DNA of 34,516 bases from Anaerolineae bacterium. Lineage in GTDB: Bacteria; Chloroflexota; Anaerolineae; JAADDB01. The position numbers and the translations under genes were made by a program. The stretch is taken from contig WFWT01000065.1 in the NCBI GenBank assembly GCA_015490995.1, positions 1-34,516 on the forward strand, given 5' to 3'. Below, piece after piece: positions 3,181-32,794 of this stretch (positions within the stretch are counted from its first letter, which is position 1; the number at the start of each line of letters is the position of its first letter). The notes beneath the pieces were generated by a model. It did no database searches and was not told the DNA's origin. It was given only the letters and a program-made list of their open reading frames with translations.

Positions 3181-3792
3181 TTACACATCGGTAGAGGTCG
3201 TCAGTTGTGGCTCTGGCTTGCCCGGCACCTCGTGACAGCGTCGACAGCGCGCCTGGTAGACTTCGGCCGCGCCGATCATGATGACCGGGTCGTTATAATG
3301 TGCCGGTTGGCCGTCAATCAACCGTTGGGTTCGGCTGGCCTCGTTGCCACAGACCACGCAAATGGCGTGCAGTTTATCTACCCGTTCTGCCCGCGCCATC
3401 AGCAAAGGCATCGGCCCAAACGGCTCCCCGCGGAAATCCAGGTCCAGCCCGGCACAAATCACCCGCACCCCGCGACTGGCCAGAATCTCCACCACGGTGG
3501 CAATGTCCTCGTCGAAAAACTGCACCTCATCAATGGCCACCACCTGAACGTCGGGTGCCACCCGATCCAAGATCTCACGAGCGTGGGCAACGGGTTGGGC
3601 TTCAAAGGCCATCCCGTTGTGCGAAGCGACCGCGTGGGTGACATACCGGTTGTCCATCGCCGGTTTGAACACCTGGACTTTTTGGCGGGCAATTTGAGCC
3701 CGCCGCACCCGGCGGATCAATTCCTCCGTCTTGCCGGAGAACATGCTGCCACAAATAACCTCCACCCATCCGCTGTTCGAGTGATGATACAT
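3181..3792 (-). CDS. tdk: Thymidine kinase (type II, TK1-like)
   Basis: Phosphorylates thymidine to dTMP with ATP in pyrimidine salvage. The 203-aa protein has the P-loop GSMFSGKT (residues 15-22), the DEVQFF segment with catalytic Glu E89, and two C-x2-C pairs (CVVC and CRRC) for the structural zinc. Length and motif order match bacterial TK1. The frame is open further upstream, but the ATG at 3792 is chosen because AGGAGGAGG lies four bases before it and the family N-terminus begins here. It follows the nucleoside ABC operon on the same strand after 176 nt, which suggests import coupled to phosphorylation. A TACTAT element at 3843-3848 could start a separate transcript but lacks a good -35. 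Confidence 0.95.
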
Positions 3793-3968: not shown

Positions 3969-5240
3969 TTACTCCTTGACGTAGGGCTGACCGTCCGCCG
4001 CCGGCGGCAGGGCGCGTCCTACCACACCGGACAGCACGACGATGGTAACAATGTAAGGTGCCATGAGTAGAAATTCGGAAGGAATAGGAATGCGCAAGAT
4101 GGCCATCTTGACCTGCAACGCGTCGGCGAAACCGAAGATCACCGACGCGATGAAGCCGCCTATAGGGGTCCATTTGCCGAAGATCATAGCTGCCAGGCCG
4201 ATAAACCCTTTGCCAGCTGTCATCACCTCGTCAAAGCGGCCTACAGAACCCAGAGTGAAGTACGCGCCTCCTAGTCCCGCGATCATGCCGCCGATGGTCA
4301 CACTGATGTACCGGGTTAAATACACGTTGATGCCCAGCGTATCTGCCGCGCGCGGGTGTTCGCCCACCGCGCGCATGCGTAACCCCCACCGGGTGTGGAA
4401 GAGCACAATGTGACTGAGAACCACCAGCAGCATCATGATGTAAATGATGATGTTAACATTGAAGAAAATGGGGCCGAGGATGGGAATCTGAGCCAGGACG
4501 GGGATGGGGATCGGCTTGAAATTGCCGGCTGCGTTCAGGTCCTGACGCACTGCGAGCCAAGACTGGCTGAGGAAACTGGTCAGGCCCACGGCGAAGATGT
4601 TAATGGCCGTGCCGGCGATGATCTGGTCTACCCGGAAGGTCACGGCCAGGACCGCCAGCACCAACCCCAGGAGGCCGCCGGTCAACACGGCAGCTACGAG
4701 CCCCCAGTACAGGTTTTGGGTCGCGCTGGCGACGACGACTCCCGTAAACGCGGCGCTCAACATCATCCCCTCGATGCCGATGTTGATCACCGCGGTACGT
4801 TCGCACCATACACCGCTTAAGGCCCCAAAGGTGATAGGGGCTGCTCGTAAAAGGGTGCTGGCCAGCATGCCCACCAAGTTGAAAGACTTGCCGGCCGTGG
4901 CCCAGAGCAAGAAGGCGACCAGGAAAATAATGAGAATCACGCCCAACACCGCCTGGGGCTCCCGGAAGCCTCGTGCCAGCTGCCATCCGCCCAGAAACGC
5001 AGCGATGAACCCGAGAAACAGCACGGCCGGCCGCGCCGGCACCACCAAATCGGGTAGCGGTGGCGGTTTGACGGCTGTGACGATGTTCAGGCCGAACTTC
5101 GCGGACGCGCCAGGTTCAATGTTGGGAAAGAAGAGCCACCAGATGAGCACAGCAAATGTCAGATATACCACCCCGAGGACCCGATCACGGGTTAGATACT
5201 GGTGTCGGAAGGTGCTCCAGTCAAGCGTACCGGCTTTCAC
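3969..5240 (-). CDS. Nucleoside/simple-sugar ABC transporter permease (NupQ/YufQ-like)
   Basis: Second membrane subunit of a BMP-type nucleoside importer. This is a 423-aa polytopic protein of the BPD_transp_2 family, with an N-terminal extension carrying three membrane segments before the conserved core. Family signatures are NIGIEGMML (about residue 150), [15 protein letters not shown] (about 290) and [15 protein letters not shown] (about 345). The GTG start at 5240 has AGGAGG four bases upstream. It begins 23 nt after the stop of the first permease gene and is the last gene of the transporter operon. Nucleoside specificity is inferred from the BMP domain of the binding protein and from the neighbouring thymidine kinase. 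Sugar transport by this family is the alternative. Confidence 0.88.
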
Positions 5241-5263: not shown

Positions 5264-6529
5264 TTATGCACCCCAACCTCGGGTGAAGATTGTCTCCCCT
5301 TCTTCTTGCACTGCCCGGACACGCCAAATGAAGCGGACCAGGGCCGGAGCGGCCACGAAGACGATTACCATACCCTGTACAATCTGCACGATGTCAATGG
5401 GAATCCCCGCGGCGGACTGCATGCGTGTAGCGCCGGCGCGCAGGAACCCCCATAACAAGGAGGCCAACACCACGCCCGTCGGGTGGCTTTTGCCCAGGAG
5501 TGCCAAGGCGATGGAATCAAAGCCATAACCGGAGGAGAAGGCTTGTGCCATGAAGCGGTTGACCCCTAAAATCTCACTGGTGCCGGCCAGGCCCGCCAGC
5601 GCGCCGCTCAGGGCCATGGCGATGATGTAGTTCCGCGCGATGGAGATGCCCGCGTAGCGCGCGGCGTCCGGGTTGGCGCCCACCGTACGAATTTCAAAGC
5701 CCCAGGTGGTCTTCCACAGGAACCAGTACACAAAATAAGCGGCCAGCAAGGCCAGGAAAAACCCGCTGTGGAATCGAAGCGGATCGGGCGCCAGTTTGGG
5801 CAGCCATGCGCTCTCTTCCACAGGGGGGGAGACGGGGTTAAAGCCGGAGCGTTTCATCGGCCCGGTGAGCAGAAAGTCGGAGAGTCGAAACGCAATGTAG
5901 TTGAGCATAATGGTGGTTACCACCTCATGGGCCCCGGTGTACGCCTTGAGCACGCCGGCTACAGCAGCCCACACTGCACCCGCCGCGGCCCCGGCCGCCA
6001 GAGCCAGAGGCAGGTGGATCACCAAGGGCAACCCTTTGATGCTATAACCGATGTAGGTCGCTGCCAGCGCTCCCACGAACAGTTGCCCTTCCGCGCCGAT
6101 GTTGAAGAGGCCACAGCGAAATCCCAAAGCCACTGCCAGGCCGGCAAAGATATAAGGCGTGCTGTACACAAGCGTACGGTCAATGGCTTCCAGTGATTTG
6201 ACCAGCTGGGTGGCGTCACCGGTGGTCACCCATGTCTGGAATCCTTGCCAAATGAGGGCGGGGTTCCCCAGGCCGCCCTCCAGCATGGCCCGGTACGCGA
6301 GGCGCAGCTTCTCCCAGCTGGCTGCCAAAGCGACGCCCGGTGCGACTGTGATCTCCCGCCACAGCGCGACCACTTCAGGGTCAGAGATGATGATGAACAC
6401 ACTGCTCAACAGCAGGGCCGTCACAATGGCCAGGACCGGCAACAGCAGCGCCTGAAATGCCTGGCGCCAGAAAGCACGTCGCACAGGGGGTTGCGGTTGG
6501 GCTTCCACAGCCACCTCAGGGGCGGTCAC
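5264..6529 (-). CDS. Nucleoside/simple-sugar ABC transporter permease (NupP/YufP-like)
   Basis: First membrane subunit of the nucleoside importer. The 421-aa protein has a cytoplasmic N-terminus, an early membrane segment (about 25-48), a periplasmic stretch of about 80 residues, then the BPD_transp_2 core. Signatures are FNIGAEGQLFVG (about 155), RTVGANPDAARYAGIS (about 285) and GYGFDSIALALLGKSHPTG (about 345). The GTG start at 6529 overlaps the stop of the ATPase gene by four bases (GTGA), with GGAGGAAGGA upstream, indicating translational coupling. The paired permeases with distinct signatures (NIGAEG here, NIGIEG in the next gene) are the usual heterodimer of this class. Confidence 0.9.
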   Translation of the reverse strand: MTAPEVAVEAQPQPPVRRAFWRQAFQALLLPVLAIVTALLLSSVFIIISDPEVVALWREITVAPGVALAASWEKLRLAYRAMLEGGLGNPALIWQGFQTWVTTGDATQLVKSLEAIDRTLVYSTPYIFAGLAVALGFRCGLFNIGAEGQLFVGALAATYIGYSIKGLPLVIHLPLALAAGAAAGAVWAAVAGVLKAYTGAHEVVTTIMLNYIAFRLSDFLLTGPMKRSGFNPVSPPVEESAWLPKLAPDPLRFHSGFFLALLAAYFVYWFLWKTTWGFEIRTVGANPDAARYAGISIARNYIIAMALSGALAGLAGTSEILGVNRFMAQAFSSGYGFDSIALALLGKSHPTGVVLASLLWGFLRAGATRMQSAAGIPIDIVQIVQGMVIVFVAAPALVRFIWRVRAVQEEGETIFTRGWGA

Positions 6530-8079
6530 GTCCTTCCTCCCTCCTCTTGCACAGTTTCCGGACGCACGCCGGCCATCAACAGTCCCAATTGCTCCCGGGT
6601 GGCTTCCTCCGCGGGGAGAATAGCCATAATTTGCCCCTCATACATCACCGCTATTCGGTCTGAGAGTGCCAAGATCTCGTCCAGCTCGGAGGAAACCAAT
6701 AACACGGCACACCCCTGGTCGCGCTTTTCGATCAAGCGGTGGTGGATGTATTCAATAGAGCCTACGTCCAGGCCACGGGTAGGTTGGGACGCGACCAGCA
6801 GATCGATGGGTCGGGAGAACTCGCGCGCTACAATGACCTTCTGCTGATTGCCGCCGGACAGGTGGGACACTGGGGTATAAATGCTCGGCGTGCGGATGTC
6901 GAACTCCTGTACAAGGCGCACCGCATGTCGGTCGATGACCTCCCCCTGTACCCGAAATCCTACCGCGAAGGGGGGGTGATAATACGTGTTGAGCACGAGG
7001 TTATCTCTCACCGGGTACGAGAGCACCAGACCGTCCCGTTGGCGGTCCTCAGGGATGTGGGCCGTGCCCAACTCGAAGATGTGCCGTGGGGAGGACCACG
7101 TTACATCAACCTCCTTGATGCGGATACGCCCGCCAACCGGTGCGCGCAAACCGGTGATAGCCTCGACCAATTCGGTTTGGCCGTTACCCTGTACCCCGGC
7201 AATGCCGAGGATCTCGCCAGCCCGCACGTCAAAGGAGACTCCCCGCACCGCGGGCTCGCCTCGCTCGTCCAACACGTGTAAGTTCTCCACCGTCAACACC
7301 ACGTCCCCGGGTTCGGCCGGCTTTTTCTCCACCGTGAGGCTTACTGTGCGCCCCACCATCATAGCGGCCAGTTCCGCTTCTGTGGTCTCGGCCGGTGTGG
7401 TCGTGCCTACCACCTTGCCCCGCCGCAACACGGTGATCCGGTCGGCGATGGTCATGACCTCTTTGAGCTTATGTGAGATGAAAATCACCGAATTCCCGCG
7501 AGCTACCAGTGTCCTGATCACTTCAAAGAACTCGTCCACTTCCTGGGGGGTCAACACAGCGGTCGGTTCGTCCAGGATGAGGATGTTGGCTTGGCGGTAA
7601 AGGAGTTTGAGGATCTCGACCCGTTGTTGGATCCCAACAGGCAGGTCCTTCACGTAAGCGTCCGGGTCCACGTCTAGCCCGTACGTGCGGGAGAGCTCAC
7701 GGATTCGTTTGGCCGCGTTGCGGCGGTCGAGAAATGGGCCTATCCGGGTGGGTTCTGCGCCAAGAATGATGTTTTCCGTCACGGTCATGACGGGCACCAG
7801 CATAAAATGCTGGTGCACCATCCCGATACCCAACGCGATGGCATCGCTGGGGGAGCGGATGTCCACTTGCTGGCCCCGCACCAGGATCTCGCCTTCATCG
7901 GCATGGTAAAGGCCGTAAAGAATGTTCATCAACGTCGTTTTGCCCGCGCCGTTCTCCCCCAGCAGGGCATGGATTTCCCCCTCCTCCAATGTCAGGTGGA
8001 CGCCGTCGTTGGCGACCACCCCGGGGAAGCGTTTGGTGATGTTCCGCAACTCCAGAACCGGTGCCACGTTGGACGTCAC
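6526..8079 (-). CDS. Nucleoside/simple-sugar ABC transporter ATPase, two NBDs (NupO/YufO-like)
   Basis: Energising subunit of the importer, with two fused nucleotide-binding domains in 517 aa. NBD1 has Walker A GENGAGKTT (about 40-48), a variant signature VGIQQRVE and Walker B LILDEPTAVL. NBD2 has a degenerate Walker A (GVQGNGQTEL), a canonical LSGGNQQK signature and a Walker B in which the catalytic Glu is replaced (ASQPTRGLD). One competent and one degenerate site is the norm for the RbsA/YufO family, so this is not decay. The GTG start at 8079 is preceded by AAAGGGA. A 121-nt gap with a strong hairpin separates it from the binding-protein gene upstream. Confidence 0.92.
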   Translation of the reverse strand: MTSNVAPVLELRNITKRFPGVVANDGVHLTLEEGEIHALLGENGAGKTTLMNILYGLYHADEGEILVRGQQVDIRSPSDAIALGIGMVHQHFMLVPVMTVTENIILGAEPTRIGPFLDRRNAAKRIRELSRTYGLDVDPDAYVKDLPVGIQQRVEILKLLYRQANILILDEPTAVLTPQEVDEFFEVIRTLVARGNSVIFISHKLKEVMTIADRITVLRRGKVVGTTTPAETTEAELAAMMVGRTVSLTVEKKPAEPGDVVLTVENLHVLDERGEPAVRGVSFDVRAGEILGIAGVQGNGQTELVEAITGLRAPVGGRIRIKEVDVTWSSPRHIFELGTAHIPEDRQRDGLVLSYPVRDNLVLNTYYHPPFAVGFRVQGEVIDRHAVRLVQEFDIRTPSIYTPVSHLSGGNQQKVIVAREFSRPIDLLVASQPTRGLDVGSIEYIHHRLIEKRDQGCAVLLVSSELDEILALSDRIAVMYEGQIMAILPAEEATREQLGLLMAGVRPETVQEEGGRT

Positions 8080-8200: not shown

Positions 8201-10180
8201 TTACTCCTTGGGCCAGCCCGTGTCGATCTCGCCGTTGATGATGCCCTGACGGACCTCCTCGAGCTCGGCCTTGAGCTCCTCAGGCACGTCGTCCTCGAAG
8301 TCATGGAAAGGCGCGATGCCTACGCCGTTGTTAGCCAACGTGCCCACGTACGTCCCACCCTGGAAGCGGCCCTCGACCACGGCCTTGATGGCTTCAAAGA
8401 CGGCCACATCCATGTTCTTGAGCACGCTGGTCAGGTACACCTCTTTGTACTCGGGGGCGGAGATGTACCAGTCGGTGTCCACGCCGATCATCATCGCGCC
8501 TCGTTCCTTAACGGCTGCGGCCGTGCCCAAGCCAACCGGGCCGGCTACAGGCAGGATGATGTCGGCCCCTTCATCCATGAAGGACTCGGCCACCCGGCGA
8601 CCGTCGTCTGTGGACTCGAAGTTGCCCACAAACACGCCGTCACCAAAGCCCTCCATGGAGAGGTCCGTCTGCCAGCCCAGGACCTCGACGTTGGTGCCCT
8701 TCTTCTCGTTGTAATACTTGACGCCAGATTCAAAGCCCACCATGAACTGGGTCACCGGCGGGATCTTGATGCCGCCAAAGGTGGCCACCTTGCCCGTCTG
8801 GGTCATGCCGGCAGCCAAGTACCCGGCCAGGAACGCGGCCTCATCCACGGAGAAGGTCAGGCCCAGCACGTTGGGCAGCGGTGGATCATAGGCGAAGTCC
8901 ACAATGGCGAACTTCTGATCCGGGTACTTCTGGGCAAATTCTTTCGTGGCATCCCCCAGCAGGAAGCCCACGGTGACGATGATGTCACACCCTTCGTTGA
9001 TGAACTCCTGGATGTTGGTGGCATAATCGGTCTGTTGCTGGCTCTCCAAGTACTTCACCTCTACCTTGAGACGCTTCTGGGCCAGCAACATCCCGTTCCA
9101 GGCCGTGGCATTGAAGGAGCGGTCATCAATACCGCCTACATCTGTGACCTGGCACGCCTTCCAGGGCACGGTGACGCCCTTCCAGTTCTCCAGCTCGATG
9201 CCCAGTTGTACCGCCACCTGGCGAATAGGATCGAAGAGCTCGTCCCGGCTTTCGGCCAGGCCATCCCATTCGTAAATCTCGAAGAGAACCTGTTTGCCCT
9301 CTTCGGTCTCGGCGAGGGAGATCATCGCCTGCTTAAAGGCTTCCAACACCTCTGGGTCGAATCCCGGCCGTACGCTGATGGTGTCGTTGGGGATGGGGTC
9401 GGTGATGGCGATGACCTTGGTCTTCTCCTTGATGTCGGGGAAGTCGTCTTCCAGCCGGTCACGGGCATCCACGTAGGTGAAGGCGGCATCCACCGAGCCC
9501 TTGTACACGGCCAGGGCTGCTGCGGTGTGACCTCCCGCGAAGGTGTACTCGATGTCGTCCAGGGTCACGCCGTTCTTGAGGAGCAGCGCCACCGCGTACA
9601 GGTAACCGGAGGTGGACGCCGGGTCGGTGAAGGCGACCTTCTTGCCCTTGACATCCTCTACCTTTTCAATACCGCTGTTCACGTTAACGATCATCTGGCC
9701 ATTGTAGGTGGCGCTGCCATAGCGAATCGCGTTGAACACCACCTGGGCGTCACACTTGTCCTTGGCCAACACATAGGACAGGGGCGCCAGCCAGACGATG
9801 TCTGCTTTGCCGGAGCACAGGGCTTCAATGGCTGCCGCGTACGAGGTTGCTACCGAGGACTCGGTGTAGACGCCGTACTTGGCCAGGAGTTCATCCAGCT
9901 TCTGGCCTCCGGCAAGGATGGCCTCCGCTTCTCCGGAGGGGACGAACACCATTTCCAGCGGATCGTCAGGGGTGAGGCCTTCCTTCGCAGGTTGTTCTTG
10001 TTGGGGTTGTTCCTGCACGGGCGTCGGCGTTGGCGCCTCCTTCTCCTCCGGCTTCTCCATGGGCTGTTCCGCCGGTGCCGGCGTCGGCGTGGGGGTAGGT
10101 GTGGCCCGAGCACATGCTGCTACAATCAGCAGGAGCCCGAGGAGCAACACCACCAGGTAGAGGGTTCGTCGACCGCTCAT
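8201..10180 (-). CDS. Fused substrate-binding lipoprotein: PhnD-like domain plus BMP-family domain
   Basis: Extracytoplasmic receptor of the nucleoside-type ABC importer, with two unrelated binding folds in one 659-aa chain. Residues 1-23 are a lipoprotein signal ending VAAC (C23 lipidated), followed by a Thr/Pro/Glu/Gln-rich tether to about 73. Residues about 76-335 resemble phosphate/phosphite/phosphonate-binding PhnD proteins (VAFTDPASTSGYLY, DPIPNDTISVRPGF). From about 340 to 640 is a BMP/PnrA-type domain starting CQVTDVGGIDDRSFN, with later HDFEDDVP. The frame is continuous with no internal start having a good Shine-Dalgarno, so this is a true fusion. ATG 10180 has GGAGGAGATC upstream. 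BMP proteins bind nucleosides; the ligand of the PhnD-like half is unknown. First gene of the operon. Confidence 0.92.
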   Translation of the reverse strand: MSGRRTLYLVVLLLGLLLIVAACARATPTPTPTPAPAEQPMEKPEEKEAPTPTPVQEQPQQEQPAKEGLTPDDPLEMVFVPSGEAEAILAGGQKLDELLAKYGVYTESSVATSYAAAIEALCSGKADIVWLAPLSYVLAKDKCDAQVVFNAIRYGSATYNGQMIVNVNSGIEKVEDVKGKKVAFTDPASTSGYLYAVALLLKNGVTLDDIEYTFAGGHTAAALAVYKGSVDAAFTYVDARDRLEDDFPDIKEKTKVIAITDPIPNDTISVRPGFDPEVLEAFKQAMISLAETEEGKQVLFEIYEWDGLAESRDELFDPIRQVAVQLGIELENWKGVTVPWKACQVTDVGGIDDRSFNATAWNGMLLAQKRLKVEVKYLESQQQTDYATNIQEFINEGCDIIVTVGFLLGDATKEFAQKYPDQKFAIVDFAYDPPLPNVLGLTFSVDEAAFLAGYLAAGMTQTGKVATFGGIKIPPVTQFMVGFESGVKYYNEKKGTNVEVLGWQTDLSMEGFGDGVFVGNFESTDDGRRVAESFMDEGADIILPVAGPVGLGTAAAVKERGAMMIGVDTDWYISAPEYKEVYLTSVLKNMDVAVFEAIKAVVEGRFQGGTYVGTLANNGVGIAPFHDFEDDVPEELKAELEEVRQGIINGEIDTGWPKE

Positions 10181-24634: not shown

Positions 24635-25738
24635 TTAGGGGGAGGGTAGCAAGTGTACATGGTCCGCGGCCACGTGAAGGATGACCCGTGCCCCCACTCG
24701 GGCGGGACTTGTTTGCCAGTAGACGTAGTCCCATAGCGCGGATAACGTCACGCCACCACAACGCAACCGTACCCGTACCCGTGTGCCCAGGGGCACCACT
24801 TCCTCCACTCGGGCCTCGAAGTCCACGCCGGGAGCCTGGGCACTCATCGACTCATCTGCCAGGCGCACGTGCTCAGGACGCACGCAAACCAAAACCTCCT
24901 GCTTGGGTGCGCGGCGTGTGGACAACAGTTCCGGTCCTTCAGGCAGACAGCGCACTCGCGTGAGGGATGTGGCACGTACCACCTCTGCAGGCAAAATGTT
25001 GTCCGCGCCCACGAAACGGGCTACGTCCACCGACACCGGAGCGGTAAACACCTCCTGCGGGGTACCTATCTGACAGATGCGTCCGGCCAACATCACGGCT
25101 ACCCGGTCACCAAGGGCCAGCGCGTCCTCCCGGTTGTGGGTGATTAGAAAGGTGGTAATGCCCGTAGCTTCCAAGTTACGGCGAACGTCCGGGAGTAGCC
25201 GTTCGCGGGTGGGCTCATCCAGGCCGGAAAAGGGCTCGTCCAAGAAGAGGATATCAGGTTCCAGCACAAAGGCCCGGGCCAGTGCCACTCGTTGCAGTTC
25301 GCCGCGTGATAGCCCCAGTGCTCGCCGTTGGGCCAGGTGATGGACGTGAAAGCGCTGTAACCATTCCATCACCCGTGCCCGAACGGTGGCGCCCCGCATG
25401 CCTCGAAGGTACAGCCCCAATGCGACGTTGTGGTACACCGACAGGTCTAACAGAGGAGGGGGATGTAGCACAACGGCCACCCGCCGGCGATATACGCGCG
25501 CCCGTCGACGGTCCAGCACGTGGCCGCGGTAAACTATCCGTCCTCGGCTGGGCTTTTGGAGGGTTGCCAACACGCGTAACAACGTGGTCTTGCCCGCCCC
25601 GTTGGGGCCGATTAATACCAATCGTTCGCCCTCGTGCAAGGTCAGGTGTGGGATCCAAAGCACGGAAGTTTGGGCATAGGTGACCTCCAGGTCATATGCT
25701 TCCAGAACAGGGGAGGACTCCCGCGCGTCGGCCTTCAT
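24635..25738 (-). CDS. tupC: Tungstate-type ABC transporter ATP-binding protein
   Basis: ATPase of the oxyanion importer encoded with tupA and tupB. The 367 aa contain one nucleotide-binding domain: Walker A GPNGAGKTTL (about 38-47), signature LSRGELQRV (Arg replaces the usual Gly), Walker B ILFLDEPFSGLDEP and the H-loop ITHNRED. An additional C-terminal region of about 120 aa forms a TOBE-like oxyanion-binding or regulatory domain of the ModC/PotA kind (VCVRPEHVRLADE onward). Its stop lies in the small dyad CTCCCTTTAGGGGGAG. It follows tupB after 65 nt; the Shine-Dalgarno is weak (GAGGTGA, distant). Tungstate specificity is inferred from TupA; molybdate is the alternative. Confidence 0.85.
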   Translation of the reverse strand: MKADARESSPVLEAYDLEVTYAQTSVLWIPHLTLHEGERLVLIGPNGAGKTTLLRVLATLQKPSRGRIVYRGHVLDRRRARVYRRRVAVVLHPPPLLDLSVYHNVALGLYLRGMRGATVRARVMEWLQRFHVHHLAQRRALGLSRGELQRVALARAFVLEPDILFLDEPFSGLDEPTRERLLPDVRRNLEATGITTFLITHNREDALALGDRVAVMLAGRICQIGTPQEVFTAPVSVDVARFVGADNILPAEVVRATSLTRVRCLPEGPELLSTRRAPKQEVLVCVRPEHVRLADESMSAQAPGVDFEARVEEVVPLGTRVRVRLRCGGVTLSALWDYVYWQTSPARVGARVILHVAADHVHLLPSP

Positions 25739-25803
25739 AATGACCGGTCACCTCGCTCTCGCGGATGGCGCGCCATGAAGAGCCACCGCACAGGCTTGGC
25801 CTG

Positions 25804-26502
25804 CTACCACCGTCGTGCCCGTTGTTGCACGGTGGTCAGGACCAGTGTGATGAGATATGCCAGGATCAGCAAGATGAGGCTCAGCGCGATGGCCCGATCG
25901 AAGTTTCCTCGGCTGGTCTCCAACACCGTGGCAGTGGTCAACACCCGTGTCTGGTGGGCAATGTTGCCACCGACCATGAGGGATGCCCCCACTTCGGAGA
26001 TGACGGCCCCAAATGCGGCAATCATCGCCGCCATCAACAGCAACCGGGATTCCCAGAGCAACAAGAGCACAAGTTGAACCGGTGATGCCCCCAGCCCCAG
26101 GAGTTGCCAGTGGAGTTGAGGGTCCAGCTGTTGCAGCGCGGCCATGCTTAAGGCCGTTACAATCGGCAAGGCAATGATCGCCTGGGCTAGAATCATGGCG
26201 GTAGGGGTGTATATCAGGCCCAGTGCACCTAAGGGACCGCTTCGCCATAACATGAGGGCTACCACCAGCCCTACCACTACCGGTGGCAAGCCCATGCCCG
26301 TGTTGAGCGCGGCCATGACGTAACGTCGTCCGGGGAACGGTGAAAAGGCCAACAGCGTGCCTAAAGGTACCCCTAACACGACCGCGATGATGGTCGCCGT
26401 GCCCGAGACCCGCAACGTCAAGGCGGTCACTTCCAGCACGTATGGGTCGGCGTTCAAGAGCAAACGTATAGCCTCTCGGCCACCTTCCAAAATGATGTCC
26501 AT
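25804..26502 (-). CDS. tupB: Tungstate ABC transporter permease
   Basis: Membrane subunit of the TupABC importer. It has 232 aa with about five or six membrane helices of the MetI-like fold. The cytoplasmic coupling loop reads AAFGAVISEVGASLMVGGNI (about 164-183), and its ISEVGASLMVGGNI part is distinctive for TupB compared with ModB. MGLPPVVVGLVVALMLWRSGPLG (about 88-110) is also typical. It starts 28 nt after the tupA stop with only a weak ribosome binding site, so it probably depends on translation of tupA. Confidence 0.88.
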   Translation of the reverse strand: MDIILEGGREAIRLLLNADPYVLEVTALTLRVSGTATIIAVVLGVPLGTLLAFSPFPGRRYVMAALNTGMGLPPVVVGLVVALMLWRSGPLGALGLIYTPTAMILAQAIIALPIVTALSMAALQQLDPQLHWQLLGLGASPVQLVLLLLWESRLLLMAAMIAAFGAVISEVGASLMVGGNIAHQTRVLTTATVLETSRGNFDRAIALSLILLILAYLITLVLTTVQQRARRW

Positions 26503-26530
26503 ACGTGGTGTACCCTGTTACCTGTTGCCT

Positions 26531-27400
26531 TCAGCGGCCAATTTGGAAGAGTGGTTGTCCGAACTCATCGACCCCGTACGAGCGAATGATATCCTGAACT
26601 TGCGGGGATGTCAGGAAATCGGCAAATGCACGTGCCCCATCCACGTTGACCTGGGGATGCTTTTCCGGGTTCACCACGATCACGTGGTACACGTTGTACA
26701 GCCGCGGATCGCCTTCCACCAGAACGTCCAAAGAAAGGGAAGGGCTCAGGCGCAGGAAGGTTCCCCGATCGGTTAGGGTATATGCCTGTTTTTCAGAGGC
26801 AATGAGGAGAGTGGCTCCCATGCCCTGGCCACTTTCTTGGTACCAAGTCCCTTCCGGTGTGATGCCGGCCTCTGACCAGAGGCTTGTCTCCTTCTTGTGG
26901 GTGCCGGAATCATCCCCGCGGGAGATCCACAGGGTTTGAGCCCGAGCGATGCGCCGTAGAGCTACGACCGCGTCGGTCAGGCCACGCACACCTGCGGGGT
27001 CGTCCGGTGGACCGACAATGATGAAGTCGTTGTACATCACATATTCTCGGTCCAAGCCATGCCCCGCGGCCATGAAGGCTTCCTCCGCTTCGGGTGCGTG
27101 GACCAGCAACACATCGGCATCCCCACGTTCGCCCATGCGCAGTGCCGCGCCGGTGCCCACAGCCACCACTTTGACCCGATAACCGGTTTGCTTTTCGAAG
27201 AGGGGTACCAGGACATCCAACAGGCCCGAATCCTGGGTGCTGGTGGTGGTGGCCAGAATGACATCTCGCCGGTTTGCCGTCGCGGGGGACGAGGTGCGTG
27301 AGGCACATCCCAGGAGGACCATGGCCATCATCAAGGTCACGCTCACCGTCACTACCTGGCGCAGGGCAGCCCACCACAGCAGCCCCCACCTTCTGCTCAT
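26531..27400 (-). CDS. tupA: Tungstate-binding lipoprotein
   Basis: Substrate-binding component of a tungstate importer, 289 aa. The signal peptide ends in a lipobox LLGC (C32). The mature protein begins with the hallmark TTTSTQDSGLLD (about 50-61) of TupA, followed by VKVVAVGTGAALRMGERGDADVL split over the first lobe, and SRGDDSGTHKKE (about 160-171) in the second. The TTTSTQDSG motif separates TupA from ModA. The ATG is directly joined to the dnaE stop (TGA-ATG) and its GGGAGG Shine-Dalgarno lies inside the last dnaE codons, indicating coupled translation. High-affinity tungstate uptake would supply tungstoenzymes such as aldehyde oxidoreductases, none of which is in view. Confidence 0.9.
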   Translation of the reverse strand: MSRRWGLLWWAALRQVVTVSVTLMMAMVLLGCASRTSSPATANRRDVILATTTSTQDSGLLDVLVPLFEKQTGYRVKVVAVGTGAALRMGERGDADVLLVHAPEAEEAFMAAGHGLDREYVMYNDFIIVGPPDDPAGVRGLTDAVVALRRIARAQTLWISRGDDSGTHKKETSLWSEAGITPEGTWYQESGQGMGATLLIASEKQAYTLTDRGTFLRLSPSLSLDVLVEGDPRLYNVYHVIVVNPEKHPQVNVDGARAFADFLTSPQVQDIIRSYGVDEFGQPLFQIGR

Positions 27401-30400
27401 TCAGGATCCTCCCTGCCAGGGACGGATTTCGATGCGCTCTACTCCGACCAGCGCTTGCAGCGCCGCTGCCAGTTGGGGGCACCACCCGGTCCGCGCGTTG
27501 GGGAAGTCCACTTCCACCCACCCGCCGTTTTGCGGGATGATGAGGATAAATCGATCTTCCCCCTGGTACTGGGTGAGGAGCTCGAACACCTCGGCCAGGT
27601 GTTTACGGTCTGTTTGCAGGTTGCCCGTGCGCCGGAGGACAACGCGAATCTGCCGTGGTCCTTCTTCAAGGGCCGTGGCATTTCGGGCTTCGCCGTTCGT
27701 CGTGGGCACGTAAATGGGCGCTCGATAAGTCTTCGGGGTAGGCTCGTCCGGCGTCGGGGTGGGTGCGGGCGTTGTCGCCGGAGCGGCCTCTGTGGCAGGG
27801 TTTGGTGCTTCTGTTTCGCTTTCGGTCGTTTCCGGGATAACCTGGAGTTCCCTTTCCACCTCCTCCTCTTCCAGAACATCCATCTCCGGTTCCCAGGGGG
27901 AGTCCATTGGCGGAGGGAGGTCGTCCAAGGCGTTCTCTTGAACGGGTGTCTCGATCGGGGGAGGCACCGGCGGCAGTGCGGAGCGGGAGGTCACCACTTC
28001 TACGTGGTCCTGGGCCCGTTCGACAATGAGGCTGACGGCCTCACCCCGTTGCTCTACCCGTCCATCCACGATTAAAATCGTGCCCGACTTCCAGAAGTTC
28101 TGGGTCTCTCGGTAAACCCGCGGGAAGACCACCAGGTCCAGCGTGCCGTACATGTCCTCCAGCGTCACGAAAGCCATCGTCTCCTGGGAGCGAGTGATCA
28201 CCGTGCGTACGGATTGGACCAACCCTGCTGTGCGTACCCGGCGGCCGACGTAGGCTTCGTTCAGCCGGCCTGCATATTCGGTGATGTAGTCTCCGATGTT
28301 GATGGAAAGCTTTTGCAAAGGATGTCCTGAGAGATATACGCCCAGGAGATCCTTTTCCCATTCCAGCATCTCGCGCGCGCTGGGTGGTGCCACGTCCGGA
28401 AGTTGGATCTGACCAACATCCACCGGTTCATCTTCACCCAGCAGGTCAAAGATGCTGATTTGGCCTGTGTCCTTGTCCTTATGATGGGCCGCGCTAAACG
28501 CCATCATCTGGTCAATGGCTTCTAACAACTGCCGGCGATTGCCGAACTGGTCCAGCGCGCCCACTTTAATCAGGCATTCTAAGGCCTTGCGGTTCACTTT
28601 ACGCAGGTCAACCCGGCGGCAGAAATCTTCCAGCGATGTGAACGGTCCGCCCTGCCGTCGTGCTTCCAGGATTGTCTCGACAGGCCCCTCGCCGACGTTT
28701 TTAATCGCAGCCAAACCGAAGCGAATGGCCGATCCCGGTGGTACCGGGAAGGGATAACGGGTTTGCTGCACTATGTTCTCCCGGCGGGGATCATTATCCG
28801 GCAATGCTTCGATGGTAAAGGTTAACTCGCTCTTGTTGATATCCGGTGGTAACACTTCAATGCCCATGCGTCGGGCATCGATGATGTAGGTGGTGACTTT
28901 GGCCTGGTTGTTCTGGTCCACCTCCAGGAGTGCGGCCATGTACTCTACCGGGTAATGCGCCTTAAGAAACGCGGTTTGTACTGTGATTTTGGCGTAGTCG
29001 GTGGCGTGGCTGTTGTGCACGATGATGGTGTTCGCGATGAAGTTGTGGTGTGGCGTCACCGTCAGGTCATACGTGCGCTTTTCGCCTACATATTCTATGG
29101 CCACCACCTCGTCCCAGTAGATATCTCCGACCTCAGCCCATCCCTCAGACCCGGCCAGGGCTTGGACAGGCCCGATGGCTCCTCCCGGCCAGGACCCGTT
29201 GGGAGGCGCAGGGTGGGAGGCAATGTCGGAGACGGGAGAGACGCTCGTAGCAGAGAGTGTTCCCATCGCCGGTACTGCATTTGAGCGCACGGGTGAGGGT
29301 TCTTTTGCCGGGGACATGGCGGTGATCGCGGCACAGGCTTCTCGTTGCTCTGCCGGAACCAGGTGGGGTCCTACCTGGTGGGCAAAACGTTGCAGGAACG
29401 CCGCGTGCAGGACCCGGATTTCGTAGTGAACCGATGTTGCGTCCTCCAAGGTGTGTTTCTTCACCTGGGAGACCACTCCTAACCTTAGGAGCATGTGCTG
29501 TACTTGAGAGGCCATGCGCCGGGAGGGCGTGCGGTATGCGACGGTAAACTCGTCCCCTTTCCAGCTTACCTCCCCTCCTGTAGCCCACATGCGTCCCAGC
29601 AACAGGGCGATCTGTTCTGGGGGAAGAGAAAACACCTCCCGGGGAATGACGGGCATGTCCGTTTCCGGATCGTACAGGTCCAAGGAGGAGAGCCACGTTA
29701 TCAACTCAGAGGTATGGTGTGGGGACGCGGGTTGAACGGTGAGGGTCATCGTTTGTCCACGGTGTTGGACTGTGCTCGTGGTGTGCTCGAACTGGCGGGC
29801 GGCCTGCCAACAGTCCGCCAGCACGTCAGGATCATGAAAGGTGAGGTGAAGCGCGGGATAAATGCGTTGCGGAAGTTGACCCAGCAGGTATCCCAGGAAC
29901 ACGACCTGATGTGCTGGCCATGCATGCCTTCCGGTGACGGGCAGACGAGAGGGAGTGGCAATGCGATCGCCCGGTTGCAACGCGGCCAAGAGTTGCCACC
30001 CTTGGGGGGTGTAGAAGGGGTGGTTTGCCGTGGCCTCGATTTCGTAACCCAAAGCCGTTCGTAGCCGGTACACCGGTCGTACCCCGTTGTCCATCACCGC
30101 GCTGACCGTTCCCCGCACGACACGTTGGGTGTGAGGGTCTAAGCTCAGGGTTTCCTCAACCTGCACCCGGCCGGTGAACAGGTCCTCCAAGCGGACCATC
30201 TGGCCGGTAGCCCCATCCAGGATTTCCACATCTCCGGGCAAACACTTGTTGAAGCCGTAGCGGGCGAAGTACTCGATATCGTTGAAGATGGCTTCTGCCA
30301 CCTCGCGTGCGATGCCGTTGCGCTCACATCCCTCCACGAACTTCTTGCGGTGGGCTAGAAGCTGGTCTTCCTTCTTCTTTGCTACTGCTTTGCGAATAGT

Positions 30401-32509
30401 ATCCGCCTCGCCAAGGTCATAACCGGCCAGCTCGCCGGCGATCTGCATGATTTGTTCCTGATACACGATGATGCCGTAGGTTTCGGCGAGGATAGGTTCC
30501 AGTTTGGGGTGCCGGTATGTCACCGGTTTGCGGCCGTGCATCCGGTCTATGAACTCTGGAATATATTCCATGGGGCCGGGGCGGTAAAGGGAGATCAGCG
30601 CGATGATGTGTTCGAAGCGGGTGGGCTGCATCGCCCGTAAGGTGCGGCGCATCCCCTCGGACTCAACCTGGAAGATGCCGGTGACCTCCCCGCTGGAGAG
30701 AAGTTTGTAGGTGTCCGGGTCGTCGAGGGGGATATTTCCCAGGTGCCAGCGTTTACCGTGACGGGCTTCGATGAGTTCTGCAGCCCGTCGCATAATGGTC
30801 AGGGTCGCCAGGCCGAGGAAGTCGACCTTCAACAGGCCCAGTGACTCCAGGATTTCCATGTCAAACTGGGTCATCGCGCCCGCGGTGCCTTCGCGGGTGG
30901 GGCGGTGCAGGGGAGTGTAGTTAACGAGGGGTTTGTCGGCAATGATCACTCCGGCCGCGTGGGTGGACGCGTGGCGGGCTAGGCCTTCCAGGCGCAGCGC
31001 GTAATCCAGCAATTCCCGATACTTTTGCCCCTCCTCCCCCGCCGGTTGCTCCCACATGGTGCGCAGTTCGGGCACCTGTTGAATTGCGTCCTTAAGTTTC
31101 ACTTTGGGGCCGAAGGGCACCAGCTTGGCAATGCGGTCTACCTCCGTGGGGGAAAGCCCCAGTGCCCGGCCTACATCCCGGATAACGGCTCGCGCGCCCA
31201 TGCTGCCAAAGGTGATAATTTGGGCCACGTTTTCCCTGCCGTATTTTTCCACAGCGTATTGAATCATCTCATCTCGGCGGTCATCGGGGAAGTCCAGGTC
31301 AATGTCGGGCATAGAGATGCGGCCAGGGTTTAAAAATCGTTCAAAGAGGAGGTTGTAACGCAGGGGGTCGAGGGAGGTGATGCCTAAGGTGTAAGCCACA
31401 ATGGACCCTGCGCCCGATCCGCGCACGTTCCACCAGATGTCACGCTTGCGAGCATATTGACAAATGTCCCACACGATGAGGAAGTACGTGTCAAATCCCA
31501 TCTGGTGAATGAGGCGTAGTTCGTACTCGAGTCGTTGTCGAACCTGGGGGTCATTGGCCCGGTCGCCGTACCGTTCCTTTAGCCCCTGTTCGCACAGGTG
31601 ACGGAGGTAGGTTTCCGGCGTGAAGCCCTCAGGCACGGGGAAGTGAGGCAGGTGGTAGCCCTGATACCAGCTGTCCAGGTCGAGGTCGCACATTTCGGCC
31701 ACGCGCAGCGTGTTGTTCAAGGCCTCAGGGACCTCTCGAAACAGGGCCTCCATCTCGGCCCGGGATTTGAGATAATAGCTGTCGTCGCTCATGCGCAGGC
31801 GATCCGGGTCGTTGACCAGTTTGCCCGTTTGGACGCATAAAAGGATGTCATGATAGCGGGCATCTGCCTGACGCACGTAGTGGACATCGTTGGTGGCCAG
31901 CAGAGGGATGCGGTACTTTTTGCTGAACTCGATGAGCTTGCGGTTGAGTTGGTCCAACCAGGGGATGTTATGGCTTTGGAGTTCTAGGAAGAAATGATCA
32001 GGGCCGAAGACGTCTCGATACCAGTGCAGGGCTTCGACAGCTTCCCGTTCCCGGTCTTCCTCCAGCAGACGGGGGATTTCGGCGGCCGCGCACCCGCTGG
32101 TGGCGATGAGGCCTTCTGCGTGCCGGGCGAGAAAGTCCTTGTCTACCCGAGGTTTGTAATAGAACCCTTCCAGCTGTGCTGCGGTGGCGATCTTCATCAA
32201 GTTGAGGTAGCCGGTTAGGTTGCGGGCCAGAAGGAGCAGGTGATACGGTTTGGCGTCTTTTTGATTGTCTCGGTCCTGCATGCGGCGAGGGGCCAGATAC
32301 CCTTCCATTCCGATGATCGGTTTGATGCCTGCGTTGCGTGCCTGGCGGTAAAACTCGATCACGCCGTACATCACACCGTGGTCGGTGATGGCCAGGGCCG
32401 GTTGGCCAAGCTCTGCCGCGCGTTGGACCAGGTCCGGGATGCGACTGAAGCCGTCGAGCAGGGAGTATTCGGTGTGAACGTGTAAATGGACAAACGGATC
32501 CTGTGTCAT
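27401..32509 (-). CDS. dnaE: DNA polymerase III alpha subunit precursor with intein
   Basis: Replicative polymerase of the DnaE1 class; 1702 codons including a 411-aa intein, so the spliced enzyme has 1291 aa. The PHP domain starts at once (HLHVHTEYSLLDGF, residues 8-21). The palm carries PDIDLDF with catalytic D404 and D406, matching E. coli D401/D403. The intein splits the conserved YGFNK/SHATDYA segment after residue 755. Beyond are the fingers, an HhH region, an OB fold (YVGRRVRTAGLVQSVRTVITR) and, after a roughly 100-aa acidic, Pro/Thr-rich linker, a C-terminal domain of about 90 aa. The ATG at 32509 has AGGAG six bases upstream; the frame runs open to 32716. tupA follows without a gap. 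Confidence 0.97.
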   Translation of the reverse strand: MTQDPFVHLHVHTEYSLLDGFSRIPDLVQRAAELGQPALAITDHGVMYGVIEFYRQARNAGIKPIIGMEGYLAPRRMQDRDNQKDAKPYHLLLLARNLTGYLNLMKIATAAQLEGFYYKPRVDKDFLARHAEGLIATSGCAAAEIPRLLEEDREREAVEALHWYRDVFGPDHFFLELQSHNIPWLDQLNRKLIEFSKKYRIPLLATNDVHYVRQADARYHDILLCVQTGKLVNDPDRLRMSDDSYYLKSRAEMEALFREVPEALNNTLRVAEMCDLDLDSWYQGYHLPHFPVPEGFTPETYLRHLCEQGLKERYGDRANDPQVRQRLEYELRLIHQMGFDTYFLIVWDICQYARKRDIWWNVRGSGAGSIVAYTLGITSLDPLRYNLLFERFLNPGRISMPDIDLDFPDDRRDEMIQYAVEKYGRENVAQIITFGSMGARAVIRDVGRALGLSPTEVDRIAKLVPFGPKVKLKDAIQQVPELRTMWEQPAGEEGQKYRELLDYALRLEGLARHASTHAAGVIIADKPLVNYTPLHRPTREGTAGAMTQFDMEILESLGLLKVDFLGLATLTIMRRAAELIEARHGKRWHLGNIPLDDPDTYKLLSSGEVTGIFQVESEGMRRTLRAMQPTRFEHIIALISLYRPGPMEYIPEFIDRMHGRKPVTYRHPKLEPILAETYGIIVYQEQIMQIAGELAGYDLGEADTIRKAVAKKKEDQLLAHRKKFVEGCERNGIAREVAEAIFNDIEYFARYGFNKCLPGDVEILDGATGQMVRLEDLFTGRVQVEETLSLDPHTQRVVRGTVSAVMDNGVRPVYRLRTALGYEIEATANHPFYTPQGWQLLAALQPGDRIATPSRLPVTGRHAWPAHQVVFLGYLLGQLPQRIYPALHLTFHDPDVLADCWQAARQFEHTTSTVQHRGQTMTLTVQPASPHHTSELITWLSSLDLYDPETDMPVIPREVFSLPPEQIALLLGRMWATGGEVSWKGDEFTVAYRTPSRRMASQVQHMLLRLGVVSQVKKHTLEDATSVHYEIRVLHAAFLQRFAHQVGPHLVPAEQREACAAITAMSPAKEPSPVRSNAVPAMGTLSATSVSPVSDIASHPAPPNGSWPGGAIGPVQALAGSEGWAEVGDIYWDEVVAIEYVGEKRTYDLTVTPHHNFIANTIIVHNSHATDYAKITVQTAFLKAHYPVEYMAALLEVDQNNQAKVTTYIIDARRMGIEVLPPDINKSELTFTIEALPDNDPRRENIVQQTRYPFPVPPGSAIRFGLAAIKNVGEGPVETILEARRQGGPFTSLEDFCRRVDLRKVNRKALECLIKVGALDQFGNRRQLLEAIDQMMAFSAAHHKDKDTGQISIFDLLGEDEPVDVGQIQLPDVAPPSAREMLEWEKDLLGVYLSGHPLQKLSINIGDYITEYAGRLNEAYVGRRVRTAGLVQSVRTVITRSQETMAFVTLEDMYGTLDLVVFPRVYRETQNFWKSGTILIVDGRVEQRGEAVSLIVERAQDHVEVVTSRSALPPVPPPIETPVQENALDDLPPPMDSPWEPEMDVLEEEEVERELQVIPETTESETEAPNPATEAAPATTPAPTPTPDEPTPKTYRAPIYVPTTNGEARNATALEEGPRQIRVVLRRTGNLQTDRKHLAEVFELLTQYQGEDRFILIIPQNGGWVEVDFPNARTGWCPQLAAALQALVGVERIEIRPWQGGS
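29012..30244 (-). other. Intein in DnaE with degenerate LAGLIDADG endonuclease domain
   Basis: In-frame protein-splicing element of 411 aa (DnaE residues 756-1166). Block A is CLPGDVEIL with Cys1. Block B is ATANHPFYT with the TxxH histidine. Block F is TYDLTVTPHHNFIAN. Block G ends IIVHN with penultimate His and terminal Asn, and the +1 residue is Ser. All splicing residues are present, so splicing should work. The middle shows two LAGLIDADG-like helices, FLGYLLGQL and ALLLGRMWATGG, in which the catalytic acidic residues (normally GDG and DADG) are replaced, so the homing nuclease is probably dead. A Pro/Ser/Ala-rich stretch of about 65 aa sits before block F. Confidence 0.93.
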
Positions 32510-32515
32510 AGGTGG

Positions 32516-32520
32516 CTCCT
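32516..32520 (-). promoter_or_regulatory. Ribosome binding site of dnaE
   Basis: Minus strand AGGAG six bases before ATG 32509. It supports the start at the PHP domain, which needs no N-terminal extension. Confidence 0.7.
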
Positions 32521-32569
32521 CGTTTCCGGCACACACTCCCCAGGCAGGCTTAAATCGGTGACCCGGCGC

Positions 32570-32631
32570 TATCAGCGAGGGTAAGGCAAGGGCGTTACCA
32601 CGATTAACGTTCCCTTGCCGGTGTGCTGATA
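32570..32631 (-). promoter_or_regulatory. Nested hairpin in the dnaE leader
   Basis: Outer stem TATCAGC / GCTGATA (7 bp, perfect) encloses an inner stem GGCAAGGG / CCCTTGCC (8 bp) that continues, after a two-base bulge, with CGTTA / TAACG (5 bp) and a seven-base loop. It spans 62 nt and ends about 60 nt before the dnaE start. It lies within the predicted leader RNA; it could also end transcripts of the upstream serine-hydrolase gene. It matches no riboswitch known to the annotator. Confidence 0.65.
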
Positions 32632-32679
32632 ACGGACACGGGCTGCAATGTGGGCTTCGGTTGTGCCCGTTACAGGTCC

Positions 32680-32709
32680 AGTTTACCACGCTTTGGCCCA
32701 GCACGCCAA
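32680..32709 (-). promoter_or_regulatory. Candidate dnaE promoter
   Basis: Minus strand TAAACT at 32680-32685, an 18-bp spacer, and TTGGCG at 32704-32709. The start near 32673 yields a leader of about 165 nt that contains the nested hairpin. Both boxes are 4/6 matches. Confidence 0.45.
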
Positions 32710-32794
32710 CCCTCATTTATGCCATGAGACGAAGGGTGGTCGGCAACGGGCCGGTGTTCTGCCGGTTATACGGGGGATGGAGATGGATAGGTGT

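Follow-up and report, generated by a model that had tools for sequence, protein, structure and literature searches.

The genome of an Anaerolineae bacterium codes for a lipoprotein in which a PhnD-type receptor domain is followed by a BMP/PnrA-type receptor domain. This two-headed receptor probably serves two ABC importers: gene content suggests that its PhnD head would deliver to a distant PhnC-PhnE importer and its BMP head to the importer encoded beside it. The gene lies in a contig of 34,516 nucleotides that was analysed over its whole length (the window). Each half of the protein is a complete two-lobed receptor with its own cleft and pocket residues. The ligands and the docking are predicted, and we infer the service of two translocators by one polypeptide from gene content and operon structure.

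Architecture and occurrence of the fused receptor

The fusion gene (Table 1) starts with an ATG, is preceded just 5' of this codon by the ribosome site GGAGGAG, and its frame is open throughout its 659 codons. A first-pass annotation made from the letters alone had reported a PhnD-like and a BMP domain joined in one lipoprotein and recommended separate Pfam searches of the halves, a structure prediction and a survey of other Chloroflexota. The two motifs that it quoted, VAFTDPASTSGY and TDVGGIDDRSFN, are both present in the protein, and both domains prove complete by Pfam match. PF12974 covers residues 79-314 with model positions 3-240 of 242 (1.4e-58; 198.6 bits for a cut-off of 27), a full-length match where its failure had been named as grounds for abandoning the fusion. 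From residue 344 onward, two stretches match PF02608 and jointly span the model (5.6e-59; 200 bits for a cut-off of 24.1). The PhnD subfamily model TIGR01098 is also over its cut-off (182 against 112 bits).

Table 1. Features of the fusion gene and of the genes downstream of it (positions in the window).
Feature	Positions	Strand	Remarks
Fusion lipoprotein, 659 aa: signal peptide, PhnD-type domain, BMP-type domain	8201-10180	minus	
Lipoprotein signal peptide, residues 1-23	10112-10180	minus	lipobox VAAC at residues 20-23, ends in Cys23
Low-complexity Pro/Thr/Glu-rich tether, residues 24-69	9974-10111	minus	mostly predicted disordered
PhnD-type (PF12974) receptor domain, about residues 70-331	9188-9973	minus	profile match; structure matches PtxB/PhnD
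Inter-domain linker, residues 332-340	9161-9187	minus	starts with invariant N-W-K-G
BMP/PnrA-type (PF02608) receptor domain, about residues 341-655	8216-9160	minus	profile and structure match
ABC ATPase with two nucleotide-binding domains, BMP-importer type	6526-8079	minus	PF00005 twice
Permease 1	5264-6529	minus	PF02653
Permease 2	3969-5240	minus	PF02653
Thymidine kinase	3181-3792	minus	PF00265 and NF003296 over cut-off

The AlphaFold model of the fusion (mean pLDDT 87.7) has two well-formed domains, mostly above 90. Confidence is lower in the linker (about residues 331-340) and pLDDT falls below 50 at residues 23-61 of the tether. The halves match different receptor families in Foldseek searches: the BMP half finds guanosine-bound Lbp (7x0r, E 2e-28) as best match and also PnrA and BmpD, while the PhnD half alone finds PtxB and PhnD. 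There is no transmembrane domain besides the signal peptide. Among ten fusion homologues A22 and C23 are invariant in the alignment and the tether differs in length, while the N-W-K-G at the junction is found in ten out of ten sequences.

Nine further genomes of the class, from other assemblies, code for the same PhnD-BMP fusion with the same order and junction. Identity is 89% in the MAG behind L008 (G004) and 50-63% in the other eight (G189, G406, G451, G476, G423, G465, G485 and G442), thus 50-89% overall. The ten genomes are spread over six families, although they do not count as ten separate events. In pairwise comparisons dN/dS is 0.04-0.10 for the PhnD as well as for the BMP half, and therefore both are under purifying selection. 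An assembly or sequencing artefact could in principle have joined two neighbouring genes, since the genomes are drafts and some tandem BMP copies elsewhere are identical. However, the open frame, the selection on both halves and the junction invariant in ten genomes at 50-89% identity leave such an artefact a negligible chance: the fusion is not an assembly error because it recurs in nine other genomes, which also answers the concern, raised in the annotation, that the halves might be separate genes. Several long open frames from a phylum-wide search with the PhnD half were rejected as fusions, being PhnD with a spurious upstream extension. None of the plasmid records searched covers 80% of the fusion protein.

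The pocket residues S189, T190, S191, H218, D238 and D266 are invariant in the ten fusions. When the PhnD half is aligned to 3p7i and 3s4u, S189, T190 and S191 are the S-T-S of DPxSTSG and H218 corresponds to H157 of the E. coli protein. E177 and D205 of E. coli PhnD hold the amino group of 2-aminoethylphosphonate; the second of these positions is a tyrosine in phosphite-specific PtxB (PMC5700983). The fusion carries D238 and D266 there, an acidic cap without the PtxB tyrosine, so that its pocket would be similar to that of a 2-aminoethylphosphonate binder, a likeness that is not proof of the ligand. An aminophosphonate is the best guess for the predicted ligand because of D238 and D266 together with the invariant oxyanion residues S189, T190, S191 and H218. 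The fusion is under the cut-off of the C-P-lyase type PhnD model TIGR03431 (142.6 against 261.1 bits) and is thus not filed as this equivalog. PhnD-fold proteins also take glycerol phosphates (PMC12718374). In its modelled structure the BMP half most resembles nucleoside receptors, and its closest solved relatives bind nucleosides (PMC7093131). Judging from these relatives, from the thymidine kinase of the operon and from the nucleoside hydrolases of sister operons, it presumably binds nucleosides too.

The adjacent importer and the orphan phnC-phnE genes

The fusion gene lies upstream of the genes for an ATPase, two permeases and then a thymidine kinase, whose probable start Met is at 3792 within a longer open frame. 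The double ATPase and the two PF02653 permeases make up the complete nucleoside-type importer that had been noticed beside the fusion. The best NCBIfam model for the ATPase is NF047930, under its cut-off. The name 'putative B6 ABC transporter' (NF047927-NF047930) was rejected because all four subunits score under the equivalog cut-offs.

Two other loci of the window, both on the minus strand, are of separate interest. The DNA polymerase III alpha subunit (27401-32716) is interrupted by an intein, with Intein_splicing at residues 840-1235 and a LAGLIDADG domain at 1034-1116. A tungstate-type ABC importer (24635-27400) consists of a TupA-like protein (26531-27400), a TupB-like protein (25804-26502) and an ATPase with a TOBE domain (24635-25738), all under equivalog cut-offs.

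The genome of the window (G000) is 99% complete. It codes for exactly one PhnE, on contig C130 (TIGR01097, 266.5 bits for a cut-off of 216.7), and has phnC in front of it (TIGR02315, 352 against 266 bits). No phnD is found near these genes and PF12974 occurs nowhere else in this genome than in the fusion. The same organization is found in all ten PhnD-BMP genomes: every one of them codes for a single PhnE, which is not on the contig of the fusion and has phnC, but never a transporter-type phnD, adjoining it. Extra strong PF12974 matches in G189, G465 and G406 (contig C545) precede a histidine-kinase-like gene, and a second extra match in G406 (contig C28) is 30% identical and followed by a short membrane protein. 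As no phnCE gene adjoins the fusion in the genome of the window, its link to phnCE is made by elimination.

The control was a convenience sample of 20 phnE loci of non-fusion genomes, picked stepwise down the list, of which 17 could be evaluated. A stand-alone phnD is adjacent in 14 of the 17, against none in the ten fusion genomes (Fisher p = 3.4e-5, uncorrected for kinship). In one exception, G534, PhnD is part of a PhnD-PhnD-SBP_bac_8 protein encoded behind sugar permeases; orphan phnCE with PhnD fused to a sugar receptor is what delivery to two importers predicts. G531 has separate phnD-phnC genes on a different contig and G447 no strong PhnD. Outside the control set, G471 combines orphan phnCE with a PhnD-SBP_bac_8 fusion whose parts lie on two overlapping contigs. 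Orphan phnCE is also present in G001 (86% complete), where a strong PhnD is altogether missing. An orphan phnE is thus no proof of a fused PhnD, in view of G001, G447 and G531. A purine/methylthioadenosine phosphorylase-like gene (L185 9900-10721, contig C130) lies two genes behind the orphan phnC-phnE; it is given no weight because it was not seen near phnCE of G004 or G001.

Two proposed translocators for one receptor, and the origin of the fusions

Six genomes (G488, G663, G533, G681, G435 and G642) code for the domains in reversed order, as BMP-PhnD or BMP-BMP-PhnD. Directly behind the reversed fusion come phnC and phnE, then the gene for a BMP-type ATPase, and several of these operons also hold BMP permeases and a nucleoside hydrolase. 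A reversed-fusion operon therefore comprises one receptor and parts of both importers. These operons are the most direct evidence to suggest that one polypeptide may serve two translocators, a delivery that we infer from their gene content.

In the proposed mechanism a single lipid anchor, with a flexible tether of ~45 residues, would hold the receptor at the membrane. The inner, PhnD-type head would bind a phosphonate-like oxyanion, whose tail is most likely positively charged as in 2-aminoethylphosphonate, and pass it to the PhnC-PhnE importer that is encoded elsewhere without a receptor of its own. The outer, BMP-type head would bind nucleosides and pass them to the directly downstream importer, and the imported nucleosides would feed salvage by thymidine kinase.

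Both heads might instead deliver to the adjacent BMP-type permease pair. This importer is the only one adjacent to the fusion in the PhnD-BMP genomes, and GlnPQ offers a precedent with tandem domains for different ligands (PMC8025302). Two substrates for one permease pair had also been considered in the first-pass annotation; the two substrates are kept here, while the orphan phnC-phnE speaks against the single pair. Orphan phnCE accompanies the fusion in ten out of ten genomes, the reversed fusions share an operon with both importers, and PhnE belongs to PF00528 while the BMP permeases belong to PF02653, two families that normally take different receptors. Delivery to one translocator is thus unlikely. 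It is less probable still that the PhnD half serves for sensing or regulation rather than transport and that phnCE is idle or served by something else. AioX and ArrX do use the PhnD fold as sensors, and PF12974 proteins of the same class are linked to kinase-like and response-regulator-like genes; however, the PhnD half of the fusion groups apart from these kinase-linked proteins, no kinase lies beside the fusion, and phnC-phnE is kept in each of the ten fusion genomes. A composite receptor, whose halves would jointly bind a phosphorylated nucleoside or a nucleoside phosphonate, has only the juxtaposition of the two folds in its favour. Each half retains a complete cleft and pocket residues, and BMP is also found fused to SBP_bac_5, SBP_bac_8, SBP_bac_3, Peripla_BP_4, Peripla_BP_6 and a second BMP. 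A composite nucleotide ligand is not supported because these partners include sugar, oligopeptide, amino-acid and BMP domains, and the joint recognition of a phosphorylated nucleoside put forward in the annotation is very improbable.

A separate PhnD-fold subfamily was found at L227 4166-7296, L228 6440-9551, L230 5986-9051 and L234 805-3910. Its genes are followed by kinase-like and response-regulator-like genes and lie near respiratory-looking genes (as read from sequence starts only). The subfamily is a possible oxyanion sensor.

The two-headed receptor may also have lost its PhnD head. In a sister genus, the BMP receptor of G002 (L007) shares 87% identity with the BMP half and has the same operon and lipoprotein leader type, but no PhnD half; all 27 of its 27 PhnE candidates were scored and none passed, in a genome 90% complete. 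In G463 a decayed remnant of PhnD precedes a BMP domain (L267 1833-3524), and there is no PhnE among the part of its candidates scored in the class search. Both genomes fit a loss of the PhnD head upon loss of its importer, although the absences could be gaps in draft genomes instead.

The PhnD halves of the PhnD-BMP fusions may form a single clade (weak support, 73). A single clade is rejected for their BMP halves (AU p 6e-105 with ten rows; 5e-5 without the three most divergent rows), and therefore the PhnD module and its linker stayed constant while the outer head behind them was repeatedly swapped or newly attached. It is likewise rejected for the PhnD halves of the reversed type (AU p 2e-10), showing that the union of PhnD with BMP took place several times. 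All fused PhnD domains together do not form one clade either (AU p 6e-41), which rejects a common origin for all PhnD/BMP fusions. Repeated independent origins in one bacterial class suggest selection for coupling nutrients.

The PhnD-BMP fusion belongs to a general tendency of the class to fuse receptors. Lipoproteins with the organization BMP-BMP, SBP_bac_8-BMP, BMP-SBP_bac_8, BMP-BMP-SBP_bac_8, SBP_bac_3-BMP, Peripla_BP_4-BMP and BMP-Peripla_BP_6 are also found, as well as a BMP-SBP_bac_5 lipoprotein followed by oligopeptide permeases and ATPases. There is an even chance that the class repeatedly built 'receptor hubs', lipoproteins with two or three domains of unrelated families (PhnD, BMP, SBP_bac_8, SBP_bac_5, SBP_bac_3, Peripla_BP_4 and Peripla_BP_6) each of which would serve its own ABC importer. 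If true, nutrients that enter by separate translocators are coupled in their uptake by one anchored polypeptide.

Further receptors in which BMP or PhnD is joined to a sugar, oligopeptide, amino-acid, Peripla_BP_4 or Peripla_BP_6 domain were seen in L171, L173, L174, L175, L178, L177, L264, L265, L268, L270, L271, L273, L274 and L279, and several adjoin genes of the partner importer. Tandem BMP copies are identical or nearly so in protein in L180 8209-10290, L259 2669-4747, L275 7460-9832 and L172 7762-10947, by recent duplication, gene conversion or an assembly effect. The BMP-PhnD receptor of L252 (7974-10088) has a weak amino-terminal LysM match, just under the Pfam cut-off, which suggests cell-wall binding.

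Comparison with known systems

A substrate-binding protein is normally thought to be single-headed and the partner of one importer family. To our knowledge, binding domains in tandem have been described only within a single transporter, and the open-access literature searched for fused heterologous receptors holds no description of such a receptor. If one receptor does link two importers, the ratio of phosphonate to nucleoside receptors is fixed and both are held at one anchor, which raises the question of whether a docked receptor can serve the second transporter simultaneously. It is also a warning for annotation pipelines, as phnCE operons that look broken may hide their receptor inside the gene of another transporter.

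The kin of the BMP half are T. pallidum and S. pneumoniae PnrA, B. burgdorferi BmpD and C. thermocellum Lbp. BMP/PnrA importers combine, like the fusion locus, a BMP receptor with a double ATPase and two PF02653 permeases; the known receptors of this type are single-headed and we know of none with a second receptor domain. The PhnCDE and PtxABC systems share with the fusion the PhnD-type fold and the oxyanion-binding S-T-S-G and G-x-H motifs. The genome of the window has phnC and phnE as well, but its phnD forms the inner half of a nucleoside receptor whose gene is not on the contig of the phnC-phnE cluster. Sensors of the AioX/ArrX type also use the PhnD fold outside plain transport; in contrast to them, the fusion has no linked kinase and its domain groups with transporter-type PhnD.

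GlnPQ has two tandem binding domains of different specificities that act independently and are attached to the transmembrane domain of a single translocator (PMC8025302). Transporters of the GlnPQ/OpuA type and the fusion both have several binding domains per polypeptide, joined by a short linker. The GlnPQ/OpuA domains are of one kind, fused to a transmembrane domain and dedicated to one translocator, while the fusion combines two receptor families, is held by a lipid anchor rather than joined to a transmembrane domain, and appears to serve two translocators.
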